DNA from: Chitinivibrionia bacterium
GTDB lineage: Bacteria > Fibrobacterota > Chitinivibrionia > Chitinivibrionales > Chitinivibrionaceae
Assembly (NCBI GenBank): GCA_009779925.1
Contig: WRAZ01000017.1
Coordinates: 1-39,696 of the forward strand
DNA: 39,696 nucleotides
Reading direction: 5' to 3'
In this document: positions 1,186-31,100 of the stretch, in pieces
How the letters are laid out: each line of letters begins with the position of its first letter
Position numbering within the stretch: position 1 is the first letter of the stretch
Made by a program: the position numbers and the translations under genes
The notes under the pieces: model-generated
What the model was told of the DNA's origin: nothing
The model's database searches: none
Seen by the model: the letters and a program-made list of their open reading frames with translations, nothing else

Positions 1186-3186
1186 TTATCTACTAACGCC
1201 GATTCTTGCGGAATAGGTGAATCTTCTGCCGCTGATTCCCGTTGCCTCTGCGATTATCAAATACGTCCCGTTGGCGACGAAACGCCCTGATTGGTTTTGC
1301 AAATTCCAGATAATGGGCAAATGATGATTTGCCCCTACGGCGGTTTCCGTGAATACGACATTACCCAACGCATCCATAATTCGCAGATTTATTGTTGCGG
1401 GCTCGGGGGTAATTACCGAAATTCTTGCGAAATCGGAGACAATTGCGTTTTCGAGGAGAATGCCGAAGCGGGTGTCGGTGTTTATGCGTCTGAAAATCGA
1501 ATTTTGGCTTGGGTTTACCGTAACGGTTGCTATCGGAAAAAAGCCGCCCGGATAACTGATACCGCCTCCTTGCTCGCTGTTTAATTCCCACGATGCCGAA
1601 TTTTCAGGCAGAGATACTAAGCCGGTTCTGTCGCCTGCGTTGTGCGTGCCGACAGCCGCTTCGGCAGTATAGGCGACAATAGTACCGCCTAATTCGCCTG
1701 TATGCGCTCTACCGAGAATACCTTGAATATTCTCTCTCTGTCCAATTATCAAACCACCCGTTATATTTAATACGGAATTGTCGCCCCACCCGATGCCAAT
1801 CACGGCGAACCAGTTGCTATTACTACCTACCACTCCTCCGGAAATTGTGACGATATTATTTGAGCAATCAAAATTTTGTTGAATTGCTCCTCCTGTTGCG
1901 GAATGTATTATTCCTCCGGAAACTGTTAATCGACCGGCAGTATTTCTGGTAATTGCTATATCGTCGCCGGCGCTTATTATTTTTGCACCGTCCACAACCT
2001 CAAATTCGCCGCTACCGAAAATTCTTATAGTCCCCTCACCACTAACAGTCCAATCCCATGTGGCGGAATTCGTATATCTTGCCTGCCAAATAACTTTTGA
2101 GGTAGCGGGAATATTAAGAGCAATTCTTCTGTCTGCGTTATCAACCGACTCATTACCTGCACTCACAATTGCCACCGTTGCGTTCGCAGGTATCGACAGT
2201 GTTCCGTTTGCTCCTGCGGCTATAGTGACAGTAACGGATTCAATGCCTAAGGGAATATCAATGTTATCGCCGTCCCCGTTCCAAACAAATTCATTTGTCG
2301 CATTTATCTCTGTCATAGTAAAGGGAAAAACATCACCGTCGGCATTGTATTTAACGCCCGTTATAAGATTATTTTCAAAGTTCCACGATACAGGCGCGTT
2401 GTTCGGTAAAAATGACAAAAATTCTTTACCGCCGTTTGTTATTGAGCCGGAGAAATATGTGCTTACAGTAGGAAGAGCAATAATCACGCCGCCTAATTCG
2501 CCCGTATGCGCTCTATTGAGAATGCCTTCAGGTCCCGAATTCATATTCCCTCTCGGCGCAATTATTAAACCACCGATGATATTTAACTCGGAATTGTCTT
2601 CCCCCCAACTCGTAGTAGGTACAAAAATTACATTTGCAGTAGCGCTGTTGTTGCTTACCACTCCGCCGGAAATTGTGACAATAGCATTTGACCAAGAATT
2701 ATTTTGAATTGCCGTGCCTCTGTCAGAATGCACTATTCCTCCGGAAACTGTGATTTGACCGCCAACACCAACTCTGTTAATTGCTATATCGTTGTCGGTG
2801 TTTATTATTTTCGCACCGTCCACAACCTCAAATTCACCGTCGTCGGCGGAAATTATTACAGCTCCTCCGATCGTCCACGTCGAATCCGTCCTCCAATCCG
2901 GCGCAGATGTAGAATTCGTATATCTCGCCTGCCAAATAACTTTTGAGGTAGCGGGAATATTCAGGGAAATTCTTCTGTCACCATTATTGACCGTTTCATT
3001 ACCCGCACTCACAATCGTCACCGTCGTATTCTCCGGCACATCCATCGTTCCCTCTGCTCCTGCGGCAATTGTTACCGTCGTCCCATTTGTAATTGTCGGC
3101 GGCGTGTTATTATTCCACGTCACCTGTCCACACACCACACTCGCGATAATCCCTATCGTCGCCAATACCCTGAAAAGTTTCCTCAT
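1186..3186 (-). CDS. Secreted beta-helix protein with two tandem repeats and a FlgD-like C-terminal domain
   Basis: The 666-aa protein begins with a signal peptide (residues 1-20, ending SVVCG; no good lipobox). Two homologous units follow, about residues 37-292 and 318-553. Each holds a VTIAAGA segment, an LNIPATSKVIWQARYTNS block, GEFEVVDGAKII and VTISGGVV rungs typical of a right-handed parallel beta-helix, and a GRAHTGELGG-like end. Residues 574-666 form a FlgD-like Ig or type IX secretion-like tail (ARISVITPEPATINLRI, then WNLQNQSGRFVANGTYLI). The same tail ends the protein at 9085-13113. The likely role is an exported or surface-attached adhesin-like protein; no enzyme motif is visible. 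The ATG has a weak AAGGCGG ribosome binding site. The long leader upstream is described separately. Confidence 0.8.
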   Translation of the reverse strand: MRKLFRVLATIGIIASVVCGQVTWNNNTPPTITNGTTVTIAAGAEGTMDVPENTTVTIVSAGNETVNNGDRRISLNIPATSKVIWQARYTNSTSAPDWRTDSTWTIGGAVIISADDGEFEVVDGAKIINTDNDIAINRVGVGGQITVSGGIVHSDRGTAIQNNSWSNAIVTISGGVVSNNSATANVIFVPTTSWGEDNSELNIIGGLIIAPRGNMNSGPEGILNRAHTGELGGVIIALPTVSTYFSGSITNGGKEFLSFLPNNAPVSWNFENNLITGVKYNADGDVFPFTMTEINATNEFVWNGDGDNIDIPLGIESVTVTIAAGANGTLSIPANATVAIVSAGNESVDNADRRIALNIPATSKVIWQARYTNSATWDWTVSGEGTIRIFGSGEFEVVDGAKIISAGDDIAITRNTAGRLTVSGGIIHSATGGAIQQNFDCSNNIVTISGGVVGSNSNWFAVIGIGWGDNSVLNITGGLIIGQRENIQGILGRAHTGELGGTIVAYTAEAAVGTHNAGDRTGLVSLPENSASWELNSEQGGGISYPGGFFPIATVTVNPSQNSIFRRINTDTRFGILLENAIVSDFARISVITPEPATINLRIMDALGNVVFTETAVGANHHLPIIWNLQNQSGRFVANGTYLIIAEATGISGRRFTYSARIGVSR

Positions 3187-9084: not shown

Positions 9085-12000
9085 ATGAAAAGCAAAACTA
9101 AAACATTCCTATTGGCAATCGCAATGGTATTTGCGGTAATCACAAGTTCAACAGCAGCGAGCATTGAACTAATCAACGATGAAAATGCTTGGCATACTTA
9201 TTTTTGGGGAAATGCACAAGCAGAAGTTATCAACAACAGCCCTTTTACGGGAGCATTAATTCCAAACGGCGGTGGAGGCGGATTTTGGCAAGACGGAATT
9301 TATGATTGGACTAATGCTACTTCTATTCGTATAACCTACACAAGCAGCCACAATTTTTTAGCTATATTAGGTTGTGAGCAATTCATTTATTACGTTCAAT
9401 TACCTGCGGGGACAAACAGGACAGAAGATATTTCATTGCTGGGCGTAAATGCCCGTTTTACACGTAGCGATAGAGTTAATTGGGTGCCGCAACAAATAAC
9501 AATGAACCAATCTATTTTATCTCAAATAAACGGGGCTGTTAATATAGAGTCTGTCGCGTGGGGAGCAACGACAAATATTACCATCACCTCCATTTTAGTG
9601 GCAGGATTACAAGTCGCGCCCTCGCACAGCATTACAGTAACGGCGGGCGCGGGCGGAACGATTTCGCCGAGCGGAGATGTTCTTGTCAGAGAGGGAAGAA
9701 ATCAAACATTTACCATTACTCCCGAAAACGGATATATAATACAAGATGTTAAGGTAAACGGTGTAAGCAGAGGAAAAATAAACAGTTATACTTTCCAAAA
9801 CACAAGGGGCGACTCTACTATTGAGGCGAGTTTTAGGGCGCTTGCAGATTTTGGGCTGACCGAACTAATCAACGACGAATTTGTTTGGCATATAAACAGA
9901 TGGGGCAACGAAAACAATGTGTTTGCGAGCAAATTATCAAACAACCCATTAGAGGGCTCAATAAGTGTGAGAACTCCTCACGACGGGGTGAGCAGCGCAA
10001 ATTTCGACCTTTCTCTTGTGGATTTTGATTGGAGCAATGTGGTAAATATCAATATGACTTATACAAGCGACAGGGAATTTTTTCTTAATTTATGGGACAG
10101 CGAAAATGAAAGAGGATATATGCGTCTTATTCCGAGAGGCACAAACGCAAGCATAAACTTTGATTTGTCGGGCTTTACCTTTTGGGACGCAAGTCAAATG
10201 CGAGATGTGCCTGCTCACACAGTGTGGGATTTATCAAAAATAACACACCTTGGCATAAACACGCTTTGGGGTGCAACATCGACATCTTTTCAAATAACGT
10301 CTCTTTCGGTGGCGGGGTTGGAAGTCATACAAAACACTCACAAAATTACAGCGACGGCAGGAGCGGGCGGAACGATTTCGCCGAGCGGAGAAGTGGTCGT
10401 CAGAAACGGAGCGAACAGAACATTTACCTTTACTCCCGACAGGCAATATGTAATAGAAGACGTTAAAATAAACGGCGTAAGCAGAGGAAGAATAAACAGT
10501 TATACGTTCCAAAACATAACGGGCGACTCAACTATTGAAGTCCGTTTTGAAATGCCCGATTACACCGAACTAATCAGCGACGAATTTGTTTGGCACGCGC
10601 AAACTTGGGGCGCTAATACAACTGCGACAATAACATCAAACAATCCGTTGGCGGGCTCAATAAGTAGCAACAACGAAACGGGCGGCGGAAATATTTCTCT
10701 AAATGTTCGCGACTTTGATTTGACGGATGTAAGTAGAATTGATATGACTTACACAAGCGACAGGGCGTTCCTGCTAATATTATGGGACGACGAAAACAGA
10801 AGAGATTTTTATCGGGTTATACCCGCAGGTACAAACGCAAATATAAGTTTTGATTTATCGGGTTTTATCCGTAGGACAGGAACTCAAGACCTGCCTGCTC
10901 ACACAGTTTGGGATTTGTCTAAAATAACAGATGTTGTTATACAGCCACTTTGGGTTAGCGCAGTAGATTTTCAAATAACCTCGCTTGCCGTAGCAGGTTT
11001 GAAAACTCAAGCAAGCGAAAATGTCGAAGTTATTTGGGATACAAAAACGGACTTTGTTTACAACGGAAGAGTGCAAGCGCCGACAGCAACGGCAATTACG
11101 GCAGACGGAATTCCGTTGCAACTTACGATTTTGGGCGGCGCAACAAACGCAAACAGTTCGCCATACGTCGCAACGGCAATTCTTGCGACAACAAACAGCA
11201 ATTTCAACTTTAATTTGACGGGCGCAACAAAACAATTCACAATCGCAAAGGCACAAATCAGCCCAATCTTAAACATTCAAAGCGTTGAAGTCGGAAATGC
11301 GCTTGCTCCGAGCGTAATCGGAAATCTTGACAATGGCGCAATAACTTACCTTTTTGCAACAAGTGAAAACGGAGAATTTTCTGCAATTGCTCCGACTGCT
11401 GTAGGAACACACTTTGCAAAAGCAATGATAGCGGAAACAGAAAACCGTCTTGGCGCGCAAACACCCGTTGTCTCGTTTGCCATACTTTCCGAAACAGCGG
11501 CAGAAACGGCAAATGTTGTAGTAGTTTGGGAAGATATAAACGACGACTTTATATTTAACGGCTCAATGCAAGCGCCGTCTGCTTCGGCAACATTGTTCGG
11601 ACTTCCCGTTCCATTGGAAATTATCGGCGGAATTAACGCGGGAGAACACAGAGCAATCGCCCGTTTGGCAACTCCGAATAATCAGATAATTTTGACCAAC
11701 TCCGAAAAACCATTTACGATAGAGCCGAGAACGCTTCGCGAAAACGCAATATCGCCAATCAGCCATTTTTCATTTACGGGCAGGCAAATTACTCCGAATG
11801 TCGAAGTTAAATACGGCGAAGAAAGTTTAACGGAAAACGTAGATTTCAAGGTTTTTTACGGAGCAAATATTTCGGGAATGGGAAGCGTAGAAATCACGGG
11901 TATCGGAAACTACACGGGAATTTTAAGCCGCACATTTGCCATTGCTTCAAGCGGAACACCTATTGTCAGCGTTGTTTGGGGCGAAACGCAATTTACGTTC

Positions 12001-13113
12001 AACGGCGAAGAACAATATCCCACTGCAACGGCAATGTGGAACGATATAGAAATCGAACTTGAAATTATCGGCAAACAAACAAACGCGGGAAGCCACGTGG
12101 CAGTTGCTCAACTTAAAAATCCCGCGCTTGGCATAATTTTGGTGAATAATGTTCGTCCGTTTACCATTAGCCCTAAGAAATTAACGGTAAGTTGGTCGCA
12201 ACCAAGAACGTTTGTTTATAACAAAATGGTGCAAGTCCCAATTCCGAGCGTGGAAGAGAAAAGCGTTATGTTGCGTGTTGTCGGCGGTCAGTCCGAAGTC
12301 GGAAATTATACGGGAGTTCTTGCGCCGTTTGCTCAGATAATTTCGGCAAATGCGAATAATTTCACGCTTGACGAAAGCACCGTCAGCATAGATTATTCAA
12401 TTACACCGAGAACGCTTTTGGTTTCATTGACCGCACCCGCTAACGACACAATTTTGTTGAACGAAAGAGATTTCGCTGAAATAGAAGACATTATATCTCA
12501 TTTGAGCGGACTTATCAGATTTATCGGCTTTGCAACTAACACCGAAACGCAAGAAAGCGACAATGAAGACGTTTTGACGGGAGCGCCGTCAATTTCGTTG
12601 AGCCCGATACCGACAACACTTTCAGCAGAAGCGCGCGAACAACGTTCAAACGAAACAGAAAGATTGTATTCGGTCAACATAAACACTTCGGCAATGAGCG
12701 CAAAAAACTACACCCCGCAAGGTCAAACAGGTTTAGTCGTAAGATTATCACAAGGTTCCACATCAATCAGAAGAACAGAATCCCGCGATAACAGACACGG
12801 CATTGTGTTGGAAAATGCCATTGTTTCGGATGTGGCAAGAATTTCGGTAATCACTCCCGAACCCGCAACAATAAACTTGCGAATTTTAGATAATTTGGGG
12901 AATGTCGTATTCACGGAAACCGCTACCCATCCGTACGGGCGGGTTTTAAACCCGCCCCTACATTCGTCGGCAATCGTCTGGAATTTGACCAACACCAACG
13001 GACGTTTCGTCGCCAACGGCACGTATTTGATTGTTGTAGAGACGCAATGCCTTGCGTCTCCTTCCGGCGGCAGAAGATTCACCTATTCCGCAAGAATTGG
13101 CGTTAACAGATAA
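9085..13113 (+). CDS. Large surface protein: three jelly-roll-like repeats, InlB-type and MBG-like domains, FlgD-like tail
   Basis: The 1342-aa protein has a signal peptide at residues 1-25. Three homologous units of about 700 bp begin at 9166, 9862 and 10567 (each opens ELI(N/S)DE and has MTYTSDR, IPAGTN, WDLSKIT). The first two end in a divergent InlB B-repeat (ITVTAGAGGTISPSG, then VKVNGVSRG). From about 11020 come several MBG-like Ig repeats (FVYNGRVQAPTATA, FIFNGSMQAPSASA, FTFNGEEQYPTATA). The C-terminus (about 12770-13113) is the FlgD-like or type IX-like tail shared with the 1186-3186 protein, but interrupted by two in-frame palindromic repeats. The ribosome binding site AAGGAGG is strong. 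The likely role is surface display or adhesion, possibly carbohydrate binding by the N-terminal units; no catalytic motif is seen. Confidence 0.85.
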   Translation: MKSKTKTFLLAIAMVFAVITSSTAASIELINDENAWHTYFWGNAQAEVINNSPFTGALIPNGGGGGFWQDGIYDWTNATSIRITYTSSHNFLAILGCEQFIYYVQLPAGTNRTEDISLLGVNARFTRSDRVNWVPQQITMNQSILSQINGAVNIESVAWGATTNITITSILVAGLQVAPSHSITVTAGAGGTISPSGDVLVREGRNQTFTITPENGYIIQDVKVNGVSRGKINSYTFQNTRGDSTIEASFRALADFGLTELINDEFVWHINRWGNENNVFASKLSNNPLEGSISVRTPHDGVSSANFDLSLVDFDWSNVVNINMTYTSDREFFLNLWDSENERGYMRLIPRGTNASINFDLSGFTFWDASQMRDVPAHTVWDLSKITHLGINTLWGATSTSFQITSLSVAGLEVIQNTHKITATAGAGGTISPSGEVVVRNGANRTFTFTPDRQYVIEDVKINGVSRGRINSYTFQNITGDSTIEVRFEMPDYTELISDEFVWHAQTWGANTTATITSNNPLAGSISSNNETGGGNISLNVRDFDLTDVSRIDMTYTSDRAFLLILWDDENRRDFYRVIPAGTNANISFDLSGFIRRTGTQDLPAHTVWDLSKITDVVIQPLWVSAVDFQITSLAVAGLKTQASENVEVIWDTKTDFVYNGRVQAPTATAITADGIPLQLTILGGATNANSSPYVATAILATTNSNFNFNLTGATKQFTIAKAQISPILNIQSVEVGNALAPSVIGNLDNGAITYLFATSENGEFSAIAPTAVGTHFAKAMIAETENRLGAQTPVVSFAILSETAAETANVVVVWEDINDDFIFNGSMQAPSASATLFGLPVPLEIIGGINAGEHRAIARLATPNNQIILTNSEKPFTIEPRTLRENAISPISHFSFTGRQITPNVEVKYGEESLTENVDFKVFYGANISGMGSVEITGIGNYTGILSRTFAIASSGTPIVSVVWGETQFTFNGEEQYPTATAMWNDIEIELEIIGKQTNAGSHVAVAQLKNPALGIILVNNVRPFTISPKKLTVSWSQPRTFVYNKMVQVPIPSVEEKSVMLRVVGGQSEVGNYTGVLAPFAQIISANANNFTLDESTVSIDYSITPRTLLVSLTAPANDTILLNERDFAEIEDIISHLSGLIRFIGFATNTETQESDNEDVLTGAPSISLSPIPTTLSAEAREQRSNETERLYSVNINTSAMSAKNYTPQGQTGLVVRLSQGSTSIRRTESRDNRHGIVLENAIVSDVARISVITPEPATINLRILDNLGNVVFTETATHPYGRVLNPPLHSSAIVWNLTNTNGRFVANGTYLIVVETQCLASPSGGRRFTYSARIGVNR
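12933..12961. repeat. Palindromic repeat, GGGCGGGTTT family, inside coding sequence
   Basis: GTA-C-GGGCGGGTTT arms pair with AAACCCGCCC-C-TAC. The same unit occurs at 27962-27990 in non-coding DNA. Here it is read as PYGRVLNPPL, where the homologous protein at 1186-3186 has a much shorter VGANHHLP loop. Confidence 0.85.
13036..13060. repeat. Palindromic repeat, GAGACG(C/T)AA family, inside coding sequence
   Basis: GAGACGCAA (13039-13047) pairs with TTGCGTCTC (13052-13060). It is a sister of the element at 19336-19356. It is translated as ETQCLAS where the homologous tail at 1186 reads EATGIS. Confidence 0.8.
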
Positions 13114-14170: not shown

Positions 14171-15019
14171 ATGTTTAAAACCAAAGAAAAAGCGGCGGAA
14201 ATCGGATTTTTCATATCGGCAGCCGCCAGCATATTGTGCGTTGCGCTTATCTGCATATTTTTGTTTGCGGGCGGAATTCCTGCGATATTTGAAATAGGAT
14301 TTTTCAACTTTATCTTTGGTATGGAATGGCGTCCTACCAGCCACGGGAAATTCGGCATATTTCCAATGATAACGGCAACAATGCTTGCGACATCTTTGGC
14401 GCTTTTGTTTGCTGTTCCCGTCGGAATTATGACGGCTGTTTTCTTGGTGAAATTCTGTAAAAAGAAAATCAGTAATATATTAAGCCCGATGGTATCGCTT
14501 TTAGCGGCGATACCATCGGTTGTTTACGGCTTTTTCGGAATGGTGGTTATCGCTCCGATAATCGGCGAATTGTTCGGCGGAAGCGGTCGCTCGCTTATTG
14601 CCGCGTCAATAATTCTTGCAATAATGATACTTCCGACTATAATTACCGTTTCACAAGCGGCAATACGGGCTGTTCCCGAAATCTATTACGAAGGCGCGCT
14701 CGCCCTTGGCGCAAGCAAAGAAGAGTCGATGTTTTTCGCCACTCTTCCCGCGGCAAAATCGGGAATTATCGCCTCTGTCGTTCTCGGATTAGGACGTTGC
14801 GTCGGCGAAACAATGGCAGTAATAATGGTAGCAGGAAACCAAGTGCGAATTCCGGGCAGTTTATTTGACGGTGTAAGAACGCTCACGGCAAACATAGTCC
14901 TCGAAATGGGCTACGCCGAAGGTCTTCACCGCGAGGCGCTTATATCGACCGCAGTAGTTCTTTTTGTGTTTATATTGATGATAAATTTCACTTTCGCGGT
15001 GGTAAAAAAGAGGATTTGA
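14171..15019 (+). CDS. pstC: Phosphate ABC transporter permease PstC
   Basis: The 282-aa protein has six predicted membrane segments. The N-terminal hydrophobic helix (FFISAAASILCVALICIFLF) is followed by the short PstC periplasmic part with GMEWRPTSHGKFGIFPMI, the family signature. The ABC permease loop includes YYEGALALGASKEESMFFATLPAAKSGI (EAA motif with conserved G), which contacts PstB. LGRCVGETMAVIMVAGN is also typical. It starts at the ATG immediately after the pstS stop and has no separate promoter. The partner permease PstA and ATPase PstB are on the opposite strand 3-4 kb away. Confidence 0.95.
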   Translation: MFKTKEKAAEIGFFISAAASILCVALICIFLFAGGIPAIFEIGFFNFIFGMEWRPTSHGKFGIFPMITATMLATSLALLFAVPVGIMTAVFLVKFCKKKISNILSPMVSLLAAIPSVVYGFFGMVVIAPIIGELFGGSGRSLIAASIILAIMILPTIITVSQAAIRAVPEIYYEGALALGASKEESMFFATLPAAKSGIIASVVLGLGRCVGETMAVIMVAGNQVRIPGSLFDGVRTLTANIVLEMGYAEGLHREALISTAVVLFVFILMINFTFAVVKKRI

Positions 15020-15025
15020 GAAGAA

Positions 15026-15066
15026 CAAAATTGAGCACAATTGTTTTGTGCTCAATTTTGTTTTTT
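15026..15066 (+). terminator. Rho-independent terminator of pstS-pstC
   Basis: A 15-bp perfect stem (15026-15040 with 15046-15060), a 5-base loop and six T. The minus-strand small peptide gene stops inside the T run at 15065, so this hairpin separates the converging transcripts. Confidence 0.9.
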
Positions 15067-15223
15067 AATTCTTGTTCAATTTCAACATTGTTTCTCCTGA
15101 ACCTCCTCTTGGTGGTATAGGCTTTAGCATCGACGAACTACTTGTTCCTTTTAGTTGATGCCCTTGCCTTAGGCTGTTATTTCGAAGTTGGTAGCCTTCA
15201 ATTGCTAATTTTCTCTCGTTCAT
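15065..15223 (-). CDS. 52-aa Gly/Ser/Pro-rich peptide gene coupled to the DUF6338-like gene
   Basis: I chose the ATG at 15223 because AAAGGAG lies 7 bases upstream; the longer frame from 15256 has none. It overlaps the end of the DUF6338-like gene by 26 bp, so translation is coupled. The peptide has two short related units (GYQLRNNSL and GHQLKGTSSSS) and a PIPPRGGSGE motif, and is hydrophilic with no signal peptide. I recall short Tyr-Gln-Pro and PPxGGSG peptides beside DUF6338 genes elsewhere, but this is memory, not a search result. The function is unknown; it could be a partner, immunity peptide or secreted signal. Confidence 0.5.
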   Translation of the reverse strand: MNERKLAIEGYQLRNNSLRQGHQLKGTSSSSMLKPIPPRGGSGETMLKLNKN

Positions 15224-15797
15224 CGCTTTCTCCTTTCTGCTCATTAAAAAGTTCAATATACTCTATTTCGTCATAATTTATTAACAACCCCTTTGTGTCG
15301 GGTGTTTTTTCCATAAATATTCCTTCTTCATTAAGTCTCCAAACTTCTTCTAAATATAAATCTTCTTTTTCAGGGTAAGATGAAGCAAATGAATCACCTC
15401 CATAAAGACCGCCTATAATTCTTTCATTTTTTAAGTGAATTAGTACAAAAAAACGAACTTTTTGGTTGCTAAAAAAGTAATCCCAAGATTTGGGTATTGT
15501 GCTGATAGTTTTATCTTTTATGATATTAAATCCTAATATCAACTTTAAGAATATTGGACAAATTATTGAAAGCACAAAAAGCAAAGGCACTAAAAAAATA
15601 TCGGATAAACATACCATTGAGGTAAACCAAGATACAAAAATATAGTAAGCGCCTCCAAATATAATTGCTTCAATCAAAGAATTTGTGATCTTCACTTTTT
15701 CCGACGGATGTATTAATCCCCATACTTTCATAGAAATAAATCCGGGGGCTACAAAAAGCATAATCAATTTAATTGTATTTTCATTCAGAAATTCCAA
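15198..15797 (-). CDS. DUF6338-like membrane protein
   Basis: In this 199-aa protein the N-terminus (IKLIMLFVAPGFISMKVWGL) carries the PGF(I) helix I associate with DUF6338. Two more membrane segments (AIIFGGAYYIFVSWFTSMV and IFLVPLLFVLSIICPIFL) follow. The cytoplasmic half holds KSWDYFFSNQK, GGLYGGDSFASSYPEKEDLY and GLLINYDEIEYIELF, a compact SH3-like beta pattern. The start is TTG at 15797 with GGAGGAG seven bases upstream. The region is more AT-rich than its neighbours and splits the pst locus, suggesting later insertion. The function of the family is unknown to me. Confidence 0.6.
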   Translation of the reverse strand: MEFLNENTIKLIMLFVAPGFISMKVWGLIHPSEKVKITNSLIEAIIFGGAYYIFVSWFTSMVCLSDIFLVPLLFVLSIICPIFLKLILGFNIIKDKTISTIPKSWDYFFSNQKVRFFVLIHLKNERIIGGLYGGDSFASSYPEKEDLYLEEVWRLNEEGIFMEKTPDTKGLLINYDEIEYIELFNEQKGESDEREKISN

Positions 15798-15867
15798 TTT
15801 AACACTCCTCCAATAAGCAATATTAAAATATCAATGAAATAAATATAATAAAAAATCAAGTGTTTTG

Positions 15868-17235
15868 TCAAGCTTTTTGATTGAAAATTAAAAACTCAAC
15901 CGTAATAGTTGTTCCTTTTCCCTCAACGCTTGATAAACTTATCGTTCCTTTGTGGATTTGAACGGCGTGTTTTGTTATTGCGAGACCAAGTCCCGTGCTG
16001 TTTTGTCTTTGGCTTCTGGCGCTGTCCACTCTGAAAAAACGCTCGAAAATTCTGTGTTGCATCGAAAGCGGAATGCCTATTCCTGTGTCGGATACGGATA
16101 AAATTGCGCGCTCGTTTGTTGCGTCTATTTTTACGCTGATTTTTCCGCCGTCGCAATTGTATTTTACTGCGTTTACTAATAAATTCTGCAAAATTACGTC
16201 TAAAAGTCGCGGTATTGCGTTTATTTCTGTGGTTTCGCCTGTAAGTTCGCAAGTTATTTCTCGCTCTGTTGCTTTTTCGCTTATTTGATTGATGGCGTTT
16301 TGTGCAAATTCGTATAAGTTTACTTTTTCAAAGGAAAAAGCGCTGTTTTCGTCGAGATTTGACAGTTGAATAATGTCGTTTATAAGGTTGAGCAAATGCT
16401 GTGCTTCCGTGTAAATTTTACCCGAAAAATCTTTAATGTCCTCGGGTTTGGCAATTCCCTTTGTTATAATTTCGGAGTAGCCCGAAATTACTGCAAGCGG
16501 CGTTTTCAGTTCGTGGGAAACGTTTGCGGAAAATTCGCGGCGCAGTTTTTCGCGGTCGGCTTGCTCGCTTATGTCCATAAGCAAAATGGCAATTCCTTGT
16601 TTTTCTCCCGCTTTGTTGATTATAAGCCCTGCAAACATTCTTATGGTTTTGCCTTGAATTTCTATAATTGTCTCCATTTTTTTTACGTCGTCTGCGAATT
16701 TTATGCCTTGGCGAAATTCTTCTTCTCTGCACAAAACCAAAACGTGTTTGCCTGTAAGATTTTGGATTTCTTCTTCTGCGTTGTCGCTTTCGCGCTTGCT
16801 GTTTTCGCCGTCCAAAATGTTAAGAGCTGTCTTATTACACGACAAAATTCGATAATCGACGTCTAAAATAATCAAGCCTTCGTGCATATTTGCCGTTATG
16901 GTTTCAAAGTGTTTTTTGCGTTTTTTCAGCTTCTTGATTTGGGCTGAGGTCTCGGAGTTTTGCCTTTGTGATTTTACTAAAATCGGCGCCAACTCGTCGT
17001 AAACATCGCAATCTTGCGGGCATTCCAAATCGATTTTTTCTATGTCTCGCGTGATTTTTGAGATGACAAATTTTGTCGCAGTTGATATGGCAAAGAAGTA
17101 AAATCCGACTAATGCTGCGCCTATAATAACTATGAAAATATTTGCGAGATTATCACCATAATGAATAAAAGCTAAAGTTATCGCAATCAAGACTGCGCTT
17201 AGAATTAAATTTGTCCAAAAAATCAGGAATTTCAT
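15868..17235 (-). CDS. phoR: Phosphate-regulon sensor histidine kinase PhoR
   Basis: The 455-aa protein has two membrane helices (about 7-26 and 33-55) with little periplasmic sequence between them, as in PhoR. A linker and a PAS domain follow (FETITANMHEGLIILDVDYR onward, about 110-225). The HisKA domain has phospho-acceptor His241 in FSANVSHELKTPLAVI, and the ATPase domain has LLVNAVKYN, SVSDTGIGIP and STGLGLAI. I start at 17235, where ATG overlaps the phoB stop as ATGA; the longer upstream frame is an Arg-rich shadow of phoB. It phosphorylates PhoB when PstSCAB/PhoU report low phosphate. Confidence 0.9.
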   Translation of the reverse strand: MKFLIFWTNLILSAVLIAITLAFIHYGDNLANIFIVIIGAALVGFYFFAISTATKFVISKITRDIEKIDLECPQDCDVYDELAPILVKSQRQNSETSAQIKKLKKRKKHFETITANMHEGLIILDVDYRILSCNKTALNILDGENSKRESDNAEEEIQNLTGKHVLVLCREEEFRQGIKFADDVKKMETIIEIQGKTIRMFAGLIINKAGEKQGIAILLMDISEQADREKLRREFSANVSHELKTPLAVISGYSEIITKGIAKPEDIKDFSGKIYTEAQHLLNLINDIIQLSNLDENSAFSFEKVNLYEFAQNAINQISEKATEREITCELTGETTEINAIPRLLDVILQNLLVNAVKYNCDGGKISVKIDATNERAILSVSDTGIGIPLSMQHRIFERFFRVDSARSQRQNSTGLGLAITKHAVQIHKGTISLSSVEGKGTTITVEFLIFNQKA

Positions 17236-17909
17236 TCGGGGCTCCCTATTTTGTAGCCGACCCCGCGAACGGTTTGTACGTGTTTTCCGCCGTCGCCTAA
17301 TTTTTTTCTTAAGCTCATTATGTGCGCGTCCACCGTGCGCGTTTCCATAGCGTAATCGTAGCCCCAAACTTCTGTTAGAATGTTTTCGCGGCTGTGAACA
17401 ATATTTACGGAACGAAGCAAAAATACCAGCGTATCAAACTCTTTTATTGTAAGAACGACTTCCTGTCCGTTAACCAAAACCAAGTGTTTGGGAATATCGA
17501 CCGATATGTTTTCAAATGAAATAAAGTTATGTTTGTCGGACGATTTTTGCGTTCTTTTAATAAGGCGCTTTACTCTTGAAATCAGCTCCATTATTCCGAA
17601 AGGTTTTGTAATATAGTCGTCAGCGCCACTGTCGAGCCCCATTACTTTGTCGTATTCCGTGCCTTTGGCGGTGAGCATAATTACAGGAAGGTCGGCAGTC
17701 GTTTTCGCTCCTCTTATTTTTTTCAGAATGCTTAATCCGTCGTCGCAGGGGAGCATAATATCCAATATTACAAGGTCGGGTTTATTGACGCCCATTACGG
17801 CGAAAAAATCGTTTCCGTCGATAAATCCCTGACACTCTATTCCCGAATTTTTTAAGGAATAAATTATAAGTTCGCGAATTGCACGGTCGTCTTCTACGAT
17901 ATATACCAT
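17232..17909 (-). CDS. phoB: Response regulator PhoB/PhoP (OmpR family)
   Basis: In the 225-aa protein the receiver domain has the acidic pair ED-D near residues 6-8, phospho-acceptor Asp50 in LVILDIMLP, T80 and K102 in DDYITKPFG. The winged-helix domain (about 125-222) has LTIKEFDTLVFLLRS, ENILTEVWGYDYAMETRTVD, HIMSLRKKL and VRGVGYKIG. It would bind the 11-bp-phased repeats before pstS and pstA. The gene is coupled to phoR and lies 12 bp after phoU. The context of pst genes supports the Pho assignment over other OmpR-type regulators. Confidence 0.9.
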   Translation of the reverse strand: MVYIVEDDRAIRELIIYSLKNSGIECQGFIDGNDFFAVMGVNKPDLVILDIMLPCDDGLSILKKIRGAKTTADLPVIMLTAKGTEYDKVMGLDSGADDYITKPFGIMELISRVKRLIKRTQKSSDKHNFISFENISVDIPKHLVLVNGQEVVLTIKEFDTLVFLLRSVNIVHSRENILTEVWGYDYAMETRTVDAHIMSLRKKLGDGGKHVQTVRGVGYKIGSPE

Positions 17910-17921
17910 AATCTTCTCCGA

Positions 17922-18557
17922 TTACGCTTCTTGGATGGAATATGCAACAACTTTTGCGATGTTTTTTGCGTGGTCGCCTATTCTTTCGAGGTATTTTGCC
18001 GCCTGAAAAATATCCAAACACAGTTCGCCGTTTTTGCCGTCTTCGTCAATTCGTTTTATAAGCCCTTGCTTTATGTCCTTAAAATGGTTGTTTATAACGA
18101 TATCGAACATTATCACGTTTTTTGCTTCTTCCACATCGTTTTTGATTAGGCAATCCACGGCGTTTGAAATGATTTTTGCTACGGATTTCGCCATTTCTTC
18201 CATATATTTGCCGACAAAATGCCGTTGTTCGTCGCTGGCGTTTTCAAACAAATACGAGATGCTGGCGGCGTTTGCTCCGATGCGCTCCATATCGCCTATA
18301 AGTTTTTGTGTGGTCGTAATAAAACGCAAATCGCCTGCGACAGGTTGCTCTCTTATAAGAAGTATAATGCAAAGTCGGCTTATTTCGCGCTCCATATTGT
18401 CAATTTGTTCTTCGATGGCAAACGTTTTTTTCCGCATTTCCGAATTGTTGGTCACAAGTCCGTTAATTGTGCTGTTAATTGCATATTCGCAAAGTGCGCC
18501 CATTTCTGTCATATCGCAACGAAGTTTTTCCAATTGTCTTTTGTATGATTCTCTCAT
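17922..18557 (-). CDS. phoU: Phosphate signalling regulator PhoU
   Basis: The 211-aa all-helical protein has two three-helix bundles. Each carries a PhoU metal-binding stretch: [20 protein letters not shown] with [19 protein letters not shown] in the first, and [16 protein letters not shown] in the second. PhoU links PstB to PhoR and represses signalling when phosphate is plentiful. The start ATG overlaps the pstB stop (ATGA) with GGGAG upstream. Confidence 0.95.
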
Positions 18558-19306
18558 CCAAATCTCCCTGTTATATAGTCCTCGGTTTTTTTATTTGTCG
18601 GTTTTGTGAATAATTTTTCCGTTCTTCCGTGTTCGATAACTTCGCCCAAAAGGAAAAATACCGTTTCGTCCGAAATTCGTGCCGCCTGTTGCATATTGTG
18701 GGTTACAATTACGATAGTGTATTTTTCTTTAAGCGTTTCCGCCAAGTCTTCAATTTTTGACGTGGAAATCGGGTCAAGCGCGCTCGTCGGCTCGTCCATA
18801 AGAAGAACTTCAGGCTCTACCGCAAGCGCTCTGGCTATGCACAAACGCTGTTGCTGTCCGCCCGAAAGTGCGAGTGCGGGCTTTTTGAGACGGTCTTTTG
18901 TTTCTTCCCAGATTGCGGCGTCTATAAGCGATTTTTCGACAATCATATCGAGTTTCGCCTTGTTTTTTATGCCGTGAGTACGGGGTCCAAAAGCGATATT
19001 GTCATAAATGCTCATAGGAAAAGGGTTTGGCTTCTGAAACACCATTCCGACGCGTTTTCTGAGCAGATTTACATCGACCGAATTGTCGTAAATGTCTTGT
19101 CCGTCAAAGGTGATTTTTCCTGTTATTCGGCAACCCTCAATCAAATCGTTCATTCTGTTGAGAATTCTCAGAAACGTCGATTTTCCGCAACCAGACGGTC
19201 CTATAAGCGCCGTTATTTCGTTCTGTTTCATAGCGAAATTCACGTTTTTAAGCGCTTGGAATTCCCCATAAAACAAATTCACGTTCTCGCTGACAATTTT
19301 GTTCAC
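18554..19306 (-). CDS. pstB: Phosphate ABC transporter ATP-binding protein PstB
   Basis: The 250-aa protein has Walker [24 protein letters not shown], the Q-loop in [18 protein letters not shown], signature [15 protein letters not shown], Walker [18 protein letters not shown]-loop and switch [10 protein letters not shown]. The pattern after the Q-loop is specific for PstB. I start at GTG 19306, with AAAAGGAG five bases upstream. The longer frame from 19348 begins inside a palindromic repeat and adds 14 Lys-rich residues unlike PstB. It energises PstC/PstA phosphate import. Confidence 0.93.
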
Positions 19307-19335
19307 AGACACTCCTTTTATTTTTATTTTTTTGG

Positions 19336-19356
19336 GAGACGTAAGCATTACGTCTC
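19336..19356. repeat. Palindromic repeat, GAGACG(C/T)AA family, between pstA and pstB
   Basis: GAGACGTAA (19336-19344) pairs with TTACGTCTC (19348-19356). It sits in the 59-bp pstA-pstB gap, inside the operon, and matches the element at 13036-13060. Confidence 0.8.
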
Positions 19357-19365
19357 TACATTTTA

Positions 19366-20316: not shown

Positions 20317-21801
20317 TCATCTATGCCCTGAAACCCCGCGCCTTGCCAGCAACGTCGCGTCTCTCGAGTACAGCGACAACAACGCCTCTATATACGCAAT
20401 TCTTGCTCGCGCTTCGTCGAGGTTTGCCGATACTACGTCGCGTTGGACTTGGAGGACGGCGTAGCCTGTGGAGCGACCTACTCTTAATTTTTCTTGCTCG
20501 GCTTCTAATTTTTGTTTTTGCAGGGTGGATACAAGTTGCGCGGTTTCTATTTGTCTGTGCGCTCGCGATACTTCGAGGTGTGCGGAGCGTATTTCAAAAT
20601 CTATAAGGCGCGAGAAGTTGGATATTGCTAATTGTCGTTGTTGAGACGTGTATTGCGCCGCTCTGTGTCTTTGCCGAGCCGCGCCGCTTGTTATCGGGAA
20701 TTGAAGTTGCAAGCCTGCGCTGAATCTTGGGTCGGAATCGTTTGGAAATATTGCAAACGTTTCGTTGGGCGACGTTCCCTCAAGCGCAATGAAAAAATCC
20801 AAGCGGGGGAGAAGTCCGTTTTTTGTTTGGATTAAGTCCAACTCTCCGCGCTCTGCCAAAAGATTTGCTTGTCGCAAGTCCTGCCTGAATTCTTGCGCCG
20901 CGAGTATGTGGTCTTCGAGATTATCCGCTTCGCCTAAAGTTAAAGTGCTGTCGCTGAGAATAATTTCTTTATCGAAAAATTGCGGGGCGTTTATCAGAAA
21001 TGCAAGATTAAGAGAACGTTGTTCGCGGGCGATTTGCGCGTCGAATAGCTGTTTTTCGCGCGAGGCGACTTCGGCTCTGATTGTGATAAGGTCTATTGGA
21101 GCGACAGTTCCTGCGTTAAGGCGTTGCTCGGCTTCAAAAAGTAAGCGGTTGGCAAGTTCTAAGGAATATTCGAAAATTTGCAATTCTTTATTGCTCAGCA
21201 TTAACGCCCAATATGAGCGTTCGACCTCCGCAAAAAGCCGCTGAGCATAAGCGGACAATTCTTCTTGGCTGATTTCGAGGTCAATGCGCGCTCGTCTGAC
21301 AGGGGCGAGATTTACGCGAGTTCCCAATCCCTGCAAAAGCGATTGCGTTATGGTGATTCTTGCGGTCGCGTTGGAATCGCGCGGAGCAGCCCAAGTTGCG
21401 CCTCTTGTCGAAAGTTCTATGTTTGTTCCCGTGGGGGCGGTTTGGCTTAACGCTATGCTTGCTCGGTTGTGGTCGAAAAACGGCTCTTGCGCGGAATATG
21501 TTGCAGTGATTGTCGGCTCGAATGCGTATTGGCGTTCTCGGATAATTGTTCTTGCGATGTCGGTTCTTATTCGTTCTATGGCGAGGAGGGGATTGCCGTT
21601 TACAGCCATATTCAGCGCTTCTTCTAAAGATAGTATTATGGCATCAGAGCGACCGCGATGGTCGTCCCTACGGGGATCTGCCGTAGGGGCAATCCCCTGT
21701 GATTGCCCTAAATTCCGATCGTTTACAGTGTTGTTTGCAGTGTCGTCTATTTGAGCGAACGCGGTGCAAAAAATCAGTAATATTATTGCGAGTATTTTCA
21801 T
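20317..21801 (-). CDS. TolC-family outer membrane efflux channel
   Basis: The 494-aa protein has a signal peptide (MKILAIILLIFCTAFA). The OEP repeats follow: LSLEEALNMAVNGNPLLAIE at the start of the first half, the coiled-coil helices with VERSYWALMLSNKELQIFE, and a second half with LQLQFPITSGAARQRH and YAVLQVQRDVVSANLDEARA. It forms the outer-membrane tunnel for the RND pump encoded just upstream; the start overlaps the pump stop as ATGA. The stretch between the signal peptide and the first helix holds a 59-bp composite palindrome read in frame. There is no obvious terminator after the gene; the pstA regulatory region begins at once. Confidence 0.93.
   Translation of the reverse strand: MKILAIILLIFCTAFAQIDDTANNTVNDRNLGQSQGIAPTADPRRDDHRGRSDAIILSLEEALNMAVNGNPLLAIERIRTDIARTIIRERQYAFEPTITATYSAQEPFFDHNRASIALSQTAPTGTNIELSTRGATWAAPRDSNATARITITQSLLQGLGTRVNLAPVRRARIDLEISQEELSAYAQRLFAEVERSYWALMLSNKELQIFEYSLELANRLLFEAEQRLNAGTVAPIDLITIRAEVASREKQLFDAQIAREQRSLNLAFLINAPQFFDKEIILSDSTLTLGEADNLEDHILAAQEFRQDLRQANLLAERGELDLIQTKNGLLPRLDFFIALEGTSPNETFAIFPNDSDPRFSAGLQLQFPITSGAARQRHRAAQYTSQQRQLAISNFSRLIDFEIRSAHLEVSRAHRQIETAQLVSTLQKQKLEAEQEKLRVGRSTGYAVLQVQRDVVSANLDEARARIAYIEALLSLYSRDATLLARRGVSGHR
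21650..21708. repeat. Composite palindromic repeat inside the TolC-family gene
   Basis: Three adjacent inverted repeats occur: CGACC/GGTCG (21650-21664), CCCTACGG/CCGTAGGG (21666-21688) and GGGCAATC/GATTGCCC (21687-21708). It is translated in the N-terminal linker as roughly GQSQGIAPTADPRRDDHRGR, a polar stretch without counterpart in the family core. Confidence 0.8.
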
Positions 21802-27961: not shown

Positions 27962-27990
27962 GTAAGGGCGGGTTTGAAACCCGCCCCTAC
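27962..27990. repeat. Palindromic repeat, GGGCGGGTTT family
   Basis: GTA-A-GGGCGGGTTT, one base, then AAACCCGCCC-C-TAC. It matches the in-gene copy at 12933-12961. Confidence 0.85.
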
Positions 27991-28005
27991 ATCAAACCCG
28001 TCCTT

Positions 28006-28046
28006 ACACGCCGCCGGCGTGTATTGTTGCAGGGTGTATGCCATAC
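28006..28046. repeat. Second palindromic cluster beside the GGGCGGGTTT repeat
   Basis: ACACGCCG-C-CGGCGTGT (28006-28022) is followed by GTATG-C-CATAC (28036-28046). Together with 27962-27990 they form an 85-bp non-coding repeat cluster between the AAA-ATPase gene and the giant lipoprotein promoter. Confidence 0.65.
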
Positions 28047-28080
28047 GTCGCGGGGATTTTTGCGAATTCGGGAATTGTAC

Positions 28081-28154: not shown

Positions 28155-31100
28155 GTGCCGAGGAAATACACGCCTCAAAAACTTCGTAAAACCCTCTTTC
28201 CGAACGGTGAAATGTTGTTCGGGGCTTTCTTTGTTTTGTCTTTGTTTTTGCTGACTGCCTGTAGCGACCTCTTTGAGCCGAACTACACTTACCTTCGTCC
28301 GAGGACGGAATACGTCGTCTGGTTTAACGCGCAGGGCGGCAGAAGCGACGTGGACAGCCAAGTTGTTTCTTGGGATTCTTCCTTTGTACTTCCTGTCGCC
28401 GCGAGGGAAAGATACTGCTTTGACGGCTGGTATTGCAGTCCGGAATACGGCGAAATTATGGGCAAAGAGGGGGATTTGTTTCTCCCCGCCCACGACGACA
28501 CGCTTTTCGCTTATTGGACATTTCGCGCGCAAATAATGTACGAAAGCGACGGAACGTCCTCTCCGCCTGACTTTAAATGCGTGGGCGAAGATATTGAAGA
28601 ATTTCCGACGAGCGACAAGGATTGCCACATATTTTTGGGGTGGTTTGACATAGAGGGCGAAGAGAAAACTCCGCCTTTGCGCATTTTGGGCGATACCACG
28701 CTTTTTGCGCGTTTTGAAATAATTAAATACACGATAACTTTTAACGTAAGAGGCGGAACGGCAATTGCTCCTCTTGAGGCGGATTGCGGAAAAAGCGTAA
28801 GACTTTTGCCTGCCGAAAGAGAAGATTACCTTTTCTTGGGATGGTTTGACGGCGAAGACGAGGGCGCTCAAAGACTTGAGAACGAGCAAATTATAAATTC
28901 CGACCTTACGGTTTTCGCTCGTTGGCGGTCAATGGAGCTTGCCGACCTGAGATTTGCCGTAATCGACGTTTTAAGCAGTCATACATTTAACGGCGCGCCG
29001 CAAATTCCCGAATTTACCGTTATGATTGCCGAAAACCAACTTGTTGCGGGAACGCATTTTACCGCTATTTTCACGGATAACATAAACGCAGGAAATGCTG
29101 AAATTACAATTAACGCGATTGAGGACGGCGGATATATCGGCGTGCAAACCGCGAGTTTTGTCATAGAAAAAGCCGACCCGCAACCTGCTTTGCCGACGGG
29201 ATTAACCGCGACTTTCGGCGATTTGTTGTCGAGCGTTGTCTTGCCGAGCGGTTGGGCTTGGGAAATTCCCTGGGAAACTCCCGATGTAGAGGTCGGAAAC
29301 GTTGGGCAAAATTCGTTTGAGGCGACGTTTACGCACGAAAATACGAATAACTTTAACGTGATTTCGCATATTTTAAGCGTAAACGTAAATCCTGCGATTA
29401 TTAGTTCGGCGGCGCTCAAAAAGGCTAATCCGACTAAAGGACAAGTTCCTGCAAATCCAAACAATATAGAGATAAAAGACGGTGAATTTACCGTAAAAAG
29501 CGTTGTTTGGTATCCCGACCATCCAAGATTTTTGGGCGGGACGGAATATTCGGCGGTAATAACGCTTGCCGCAAACGAAAATTTTGCGTTCTGCAGTGAA
29601 TTTAATGCCGCGACAATAAACGAAACCGCCGTAAATATCGACGAAAACAGCGGCGCCGAAATTGTGATTTCGCATAAATTTGCGCCGACTTACGAGGCAA
29701 TAATCGTATCTTTGGAAATCACGCAGGAGCCGAGTAATTTTAACTACGCTCACGGCGAGCAACTCGATTTGTCCGAGCTTCGTATAAGAGCCGTATATTC
29801 CGACTATTCGGAAAGCACTCTGTTGCACAACGAGCTTCACTTCAGAGGCGTGGTAATGAACGTTTGGCACAACAACAGATTGTCGCGCGGTTTGCATAAC
29901 AATCTGCATATAATTTTCACCGCGATTTTGGAAGATATTGTAGTGCAGACCACGGGCGCGCTTTCGATTGTTCCGCGCGATATTGCGAATGTATTTGTGG
30001 AAGACATTCCCGACCAAGAATATACGGGAAGCGCGATAACGCCGCAAATACTCGTGAACGACGATGAGATATTGCCGCTTGAATTTACCGAAAACTATTT
30101 TGATTTGGCTTTTTCGGATAATGTAAACGCGGGGACGGCGAGCGTAATACTTACAGGCAAAAATAACTATTCGGGCGAAAAAACGCAGAATTTTGTCATT
30201 ACTCCCGCAACTCCGACGGTTATTACTCCGCCGACCGCGACAAGCGTAAGCGCAGGGCAAACGCTTGCGACGTCCACGCTTTCGGGCGGGCGAGTGGACG
30301 GCGTTGGCGGCGCCGAAATCAGCGGAACGTGGGCGTGGCTCGACGATACGCATATTATAAATGAAAACGGAAGCTTTGCGGCGAGATTTATACCGACAAG
30401 TCAAAATTATAGCGAAATAACGGTTTGGGATATTTCGGTGAATTTGAGTTATACCGCGCACTTGCGGGTGATTTCGACAAGCTCAATCACCGGATTTGCT
30501 ACTCTTAACCTTGCGCTTGATTGGCTTAGCGCAACTCCGGTGATTGAGCCTGTCGAAATCACCATTTCCGCAAATCAAACTTTTGCCGTCTCGAGAGCCC
30601 TTAACACTGCCGCCGATATTACATTGGTCGGCGACGGCGAACCGCGGCAAATTTCGGGGACGTTCCTTTTGAGCGACGGCGCGCTTAAGGTCGGCAATAA
30701 TATTACCGTTTCGGAAATAAACGTAAGCGGCGGCAACTTAACTTTGGCGCAAAACGCCGTTATTGAGACAGTCCGATTAACCGCAACACACACACACAGT
30801 ATGATTTCGGTGGAATCCGGCTTTACAGGAAACGTACCCGCTTTGGATTTGGCAGGCGGCGTAAACATAGAAGCAACCATAATTTCGTGGGAAGACAAGC
30901 AAATAATTACACCCGCACCGCCGCACGTTCTTACCGAAAACGACGTGGCAAGATTTACGCTGAGAAATTTTGTAAACGGCGCAAACACTCAACCGATAAC
31001 CCAAACTCACCTTTTCTCATCGACGGATTTGGGACGATTGGTTTCTATGCCGAGCGTGTATAACGCAACAATTACCGTTATCGGCGCGTCCTTTACATTT

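Follow-up and report, generated by a model that had tools for sequence, protein, structure and literature searches.

GTAG-tagged palindromic repeats are read in frame in surface-protein tails of a Chitinivibrionia bacterium

Introduction

Two short palindromes lie within the coding sequence of a predicted surface protein from a Chitinivibrionia bacterium, which we take to be an inhabitant of the termite gut, and their position raises the question of how such sequences come to be read as protein. Palindromes located in frame within genes are already known from Rickettsia. A first-pass annotation of the window (the whole stretch of 39,696 nucleotides analysed here) had proposed that mobile palindromic elements insert in genes of this bacterium without breaking the frame, in a manner comparable to the Rickettsia elements. 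The evidence base is one 97.6%-complete MAG of 88 contigs, in which no polymorphism was seen, together with genomes of related species.

Two palindromes and their host gene

The host gene (9085..13113, plus strand) encodes a predicted surface protein of 1342 aa whose C-terminal part is a FlgD/Ig-like tail (12775..13110, plus strand), this domain being one of approximately 50 full-length paralogues in the genome. The palindromes reported at 12933-12961 and 13036-13060 are real, and both lie in frame in this ORF. The first element, REP-A (12933..12961, minus strand), has a length of 29 nt and carries a GTAG tag at 12961; it reads GTAGGGGCGGGTTTAAAACCCGCCCGTAC on the minus strand and GTACGGGCGGGTTTTAAACCCGCCCCTAC on the plus strand, where its in-frame translation in loop 1 is PYGRVLNPPL. 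The second, REP-B (GTAGAGACGCAATGCCTTGCGTCTC; 13036..13060, plus strand), contributes VETQCLAS in frame to the second loop. When compared to shuffled sequences, single-strand folding gave z scores of -4.0 for REP-A and -6.8 for REP-B, with 0 of 200 shuffles folding equally well, and the matches expected by chance in the window were 0.05 and 0.00, respectively. Whole-genome searches returned 142 strand hits for REP-A (up to 3 mismatches), a number in which every symmetric copy is counted twice, on both strands, and 8 exact-arm hits for REP-B, while the reversed controls returned 0 for each.

An AlphaFold2 model of the tail (mean pLDDT 72, pTM 0.65) comprises seven beta strands. The REP-A peptide, at approximately residues 53-63, is the lowest-confidence loop of this model, between strands 44-52 and 67-69, and the REP-B peptide is placed at the next predicted strand end and turn. 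The predicted fold is similar to Ig/FnIII domains, with matches including FlgD and PorU, and the tail scores against the Pfam family FlgD_ig only below the family cut-off.

Additional GTAG palindromes occur in the window. A paralogous surface protein of 666 aa with a homologous tail is encoded at 1186..3186 (minus strand), and this tail had been described as lacking both inserts, which holds for the second loop; the first loop contains a different GTAG REP, GTAGGGGCAAATCATCATTTGCCC (1315..1338, minus strand), read as VGANHHLP. The recurrence of the REP-A palindrome in non-coding DNA was borne out by an intergenic copy (27962..27990, minus strand) that differs only at the centre and at one end base. 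A decayed-looking palindrome, GTGTATTGTTGCAGGGTGTATGCCATACGTC, adjoins this copy at 28000-28050, upstream of a giant surface protein. A further occurrence of the REP-B palindrome had been placed at 19336-19356; the sequence there in fact spans 19337..19359 (minus strand) and is a relative, GTAGAGACGTAATGCTTACGTCT, with GACGTAA arms in the place of the GACGCAA arms of REP-B. This variant is located at the junction of two same-strand ORFs, overlapping the predicted start of ORF 18554-19348 by 12 nt. A sixth GTAG palindrome, GTAGGGGCAATCCCCTGTGATTGCCC (21683..21708, plus strand), was absent from the earlier description and is found in the 5' part of an outer-membrane efflux (OEP/TolC-like) gene at 20317-21801.

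Element class and genomic placement

GTAG-tagged REPs have been defined by a GTAG or GTGG tag 0-2 nt 5' of the hairpin foot, a basal stem of 7-20 bp and a loop of 2-5 nt, as well as by a high copy number and by intergenic copies in convergent or unidirectional gaps (PMC6006769, PMC3733652). In the present elements the GTAG tag stands directly at the hairpin foot and the stems have 8-10 bp, and single-strand folding gives the two palindromes of the host gene loops of 3-4 nt. The wider element survey combined whole-genome searches with approximately 1.05 Mb of the genome taken in stretches, and among all 4-mers found there directly 5' of hairpins (arms of at least 9 bp) GTAG was second to AAAA, with 53 occurrences versus a median of 2. 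A pyrimidine (C or T) preceded GTAG in 127 of the 130 copies. GTAG palindromes of all kinds were present at 137 places in the 1.05 Mb, the counts from this sample being biased toward tail-bearing contigs, and copy number is high for all kinds together as it is for REP-A. With genes called from a simple codon model, the intergenic copies were distributed over convergent (35 copies, 2.44/kb), unidirectional (32 copies, 0.59/kb) and divergent gaps (1 copy, 0.04/kb).

The tag is shared by several stem families, including GGGCGTATTGCATACGCCC, GGGCGGGTTTNAAACCCGCCC, GGGCAGGTTTNAAACCTGCCC, AGACAAGGCATGCCTTGTCT and AGACGCAATGCTTGCGTCT together with others. Inverted pairs with the tags outside were detected at 35 places, with lengths of 62-115 nt, a few of which overlap or nest. 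Their spacers are mostly individual to each pair, apart from one pair of the tails, considered below. Judged by their anatomy and distribution, the palindromes are GTAG-tagged REPs of several families.

In-frame copies in other genes and lineage distribution

Copies read in frame are not restricted to surface proteins. They have been detected in the genes for MurC, RsmE, biotin synthase (BioB), an aminotransferase, two ABC transporters and a ComEC-like protein, as well as in beta-ketoacyl synthase, glycosyltransferase and polysaccharide deacetylase genes. MurC, which has 85% identity to the sister species in the best segment, carries two inserts (+60 and +81 nt) at precisely the positions that are empty in the orthologues. 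In the sister species the RsmE and BioB sites also lack an insert, and the same is true of the aminotransferase site in genomes of the same family and in solved homologues. A length rule for in-frame insertion, by which a 29-nt element together with the conserved pyrimidine would give 30 nt, was dropped, given that paired elements do not obey it. One of the ABC transporter genes (L170, 14926-15019 and surroundings) contains an inverted pair nested in the spacer of another pair, also in frame.

The REP-A family gave 0 hits in one genome of the same genus and in three genomes of the same family, and a few hits in more distant genomes of the order. Palindromes of the form GTAGGGGC...GCCCNTAC recur across the order with species-specific stems. 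Palindromes of the form GTAGGGGC...GCCCCTAC, again with species-specific stems, have been observed in the genomes G002, G017, G023, G027, G032 and others of the order, including genomes without a Y1 transposase.

The tail loop across paralogues

A profile HMM of the tail gave 69 matches in the genome, 50 of them near full-length and with a readable loop. Between the NVVF strand and the WNL motif, 42 of these 50 tails have a filled loop and 8 an empty one, whereas in the same-genus sister species 13 of 13 scored tails were empty by label. A hairpin better than those of shuffled sequences (p<=0.02) was found in 38/50 of the bacterium's own tails versus 1/13 of the same-genus tails. The slot contains at least ten kinds of palindrome, labelled by peptide patterns, and in a few tails a decayed copy. 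In two tails (L184 and L157) a GGGAGACAGGGTCTCC palindrome is nested in REP-A, in both reading registers and with the frame kept. A second palindrome family, with 9 half-sites in the sample and 0 in the control, fills the slot of one tail (L080); it is represented in the window by a 33-nt inverted repeat at 30467-30563, with arms TTCGACAAGCTC / GAGCCTGTCGAA, inside a 3733-aa surface protein.

One identical core DNA gives VxAGxKPAPT in 11 tails and, in a second register, YGRVxNPPL in 5 others. All five clear YGRV copies carry GTAC in place of the GTAG or GTAA that would give a stop. The two registers bear on the explanation that the peptides are functional and conserved at the protein level, with the palindromes as a by-product. 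All copies are indeed in frame, and tails of one type share one peptide, which favours such conservation. The same DNA nonetheless gives unrelated peptides in homologous loops, and copies also exist in intergenic DNA; moreover, identical peptides appear in unrelated enzymes, VGAGFKPAPT being present both in tails and in the aminotransferase. The first-pass annotation had named, as the observation that would favour conservation over insertion, orthologues that keep the residues without the palindromes. In the same-genus species the 13 tails have neither, and no relative was found in which the peptide is kept and the palindrome destroyed by synonymous changes. Protein-level conservation is regarded as very improbable.

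Coding DNA outside the tails is poorer in REPs than intergenic DNA is, so the filling of the slot is not explained by the insertion rate alone. A palindrome retained for a DNA or RNA function, for instance as a recombination joint between surface-protein genes or as an mRNA hairpin, could account for one slot being nearly saturated with many kinds of palindrome and for the exchange of elements between tails. Such a function is improbable, considering that eight of the bacterium's own tails and all those of the sister species are empty, and that identical elements are located in housekeeping enzymes and intergenic DNA.

Age of the elements and probable exchange between tails

Four-fold sites differ at 9/235, 0/59 and 0/261 positions within the REP cores (0-4%), versus 469/988, 84/200 and 364/809 in the flanking codons of the tails (42-48%). 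With divergence of 0-4% against approximately 45%, the REPs must be much more recent than their host tails, unless they are kept alike at the DNA level. Since divergence is low inside and high outside, plain inheritance of one ancestral insert and plain protein-level conservation are both excluded. An elaborated form of the former would have a single ancient insertion in an ancestral tail inherited through duplications, with the kinds of palindrome arising by later divergence. It would fit the occupancy of one slot and some clustering of kinds on a tree of the tails built without the loop, where the kinds need 31 changes (minimum 13; shuffled 38.5), a tree limited by its few columns. Against it, the slot contains at least ten unrelated stems, with two registers and several offsets among its occupants. 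One pair type, carried by ten tails, is also scattered on this few-column tree, requiring ten changes, with at least four origins forced by supported branches. Rescuing a single insertion from the four-fold contrast would require a DNA-level constraint that freezes the core, and the explanation is accordingly very improbable.

Genome-wide repetition, lineage restriction, in-frame filled and empty sites, reading in whichever frame has no stop, and young age are what the data show for these palindromes. The original proposal is upheld by the genome-wide copies and their absence from the same-genus genome, by the empty and filled states of MurC, RsmE and BioB, by the reading of the same DNA in different registers and by the near-zero synonymous divergence inside versus approximately 45% beside the elements. 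As an explanation for the two palindromes, the insertion of GTAG REPs tolerated in frame is regarded as highly probable. Several GTAG REP families, each with YGTAG followed by a hairpin and present singly or as inverted pairs, would have amplified recently in this lineage. Within genes, presumably only in-frame and stop-free insertions in tolerant loops would survive. The loop after the NVVF strand would then be the most tolerant slot, filled in nearly all paralogues, and resident elements would also be replaced or copied between tails.

A 70-nt pair with the spacer CTGAAAACAGAACGAACGGCGATTTG bears on how the individual slots were filled. This pair has 12 copies in the genome (11 exact and 1 with one mismatch), all of them in tails, and this confinement argues for exchange between tails. 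On the left, identity ends sharply at the element end, the first 6 nt beyond it having a mean diversity of 0.45; most carriers have a short right flank (AAAACGC..) in common. Either repeated entry of the pair into this slot, perhaps with displacement of a resident REP, or copying by short conversion tracts would explain the pattern. If short-tract gene conversion between tails, starting from a handful of original insertions, was the main process, a pair found in 12 tails and nowhere else and a right flank common to most carriers would both be expected. The repeat similarity of the tails is further indicated by the many contig ends in them, the ends of contigs C10, C21, C40, C63, C69, C78, C14 and C4 being within or adjoining tails; the tails therefore break the assembly, and some copies are partial. 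The sharp left boundary and nearby four-fold sites that are approximately 45% different speak against conversion, which is possible and the less favoured account. Repeated insertion or replacement is somewhat preferred to conversion as the main way in which the slot was filled.

A stronger form of replacement has also been considered, in which the loop is a true landing slot. The resident palindrome would be swapped through recognition of palindrome ends and tail DNA, and the elements would home to dozens of surface-protein genes, varying a surface loop. This form is considered unlikely.

Search for a mobilizing enzyme

A trans-acting single-strand transposase, since lost or missing from the assembly, would have spread the REPs. 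A search for the Y1 (TnpA-REP) transposase gave no PF01797 match in the 97.6%-complete MAG, so the genome has no REPtron, in which such a gene would be flanked by the REPs. Among 40 genomes of the order, compared by eye, there was no positive association between Y1 genes and the presence of REPs, as would be expected of a partner enzyme, and a quick scan of the Y1 loci of the ten best relatives yielded no GTAG hairpin of this kind. REPtrons may be missing from REP-bearing species (PMC3733652), and so the result for PF01797 does not exclude membership in the GTAG REP class. Loss of the enzyme, a gap in the assembly or the use of a different type of enzyme may each explain this absence.

Relation to known systems

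GTAG REPs located within genes, including pairs, were reported in 2013 (Di Nocera et al., PMC3733652). The elements studied here share with them a tag placed at a short hairpin's foot, numerous families per genome, inverted dimers, copies in convergent and unidirectional gaps and copies in ORFs, a likeness that concerns tag, anatomy and placement. That paper does not describe 42 paralogues saturated at one homologous loop, the nearest case being the recB genes of two Xanthomonas species, with insertions at roughly one position (PMC3733652), and no RAYT was found in the present genome. REPINs (Bertels and Rainey, 2011, PMC3116915) likewise consist of two inverted REPs with a spacer and GTAG tags outside (62-115 nt in total for the pairs here). 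They have been defined in extragenic DNA, whereas many of the present pairs are coding and one private-spacer pair is confined to a single protein slot; the two copies in the host gene are single REPs, and the REPIN layout occurs at the 35 other places. With the TnpA-REP/RAYT REPtron (PMC6006769) the elements share ends of the form that such enzymes recognise, namely GT[AG]G and a hairpin, and differ in that the genome, without a PF01797 protein, has no REPtron.

The likeness to the Rickettsia palindromic elements drawn in the first-pass annotation stands with respect to the way of working, both being palindromic repeats in frame in many genes, and fails with respect to class. The present elements have a GTAG tag, RPE-4 and RPE-6 belong to the CGTC class and RPE-1 is longer (PMC3733652), and the bacteria are unrelated. 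In the literature searched, what appears to be new is the near-saturation of one homologous protein loop in 42 paralogues, together with the absence of inserts from that loop in the sister species and a REPIN-like pair confined to the slot. The elements provide a clear, quantitative case of mobile DNA writing protein sequence, in which orthologues one species apart are filled or empty, paralogous sites number in the dozens and the same DNA is read in several frames. Genomic tolerance of in-frame palindromes, a question since the Rickettsia elements, becomes testable because a single genome offers one domain in 42 copies with an occupied loop and 8 with an empty one. A warning for annotation also follows, as peptides such as VGAGFKPAPT, VGAYCIRP and GGQTPPLQ can be translated repeats.

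A likely diversity-generating retroelement has also been observed in the genome (L151, G000:C3:85001-105000, at 14215-18526). A template at 18358-18522, beside a reverse transcriptase, recurs as a variable copy at 16434-16598, the 3' end of a gene for a protein with an FGE-sulfatase domain. Of the differences, 23/32 are located on template A, and a GTAG REP lies between the reverse transcriptase domain and the template.
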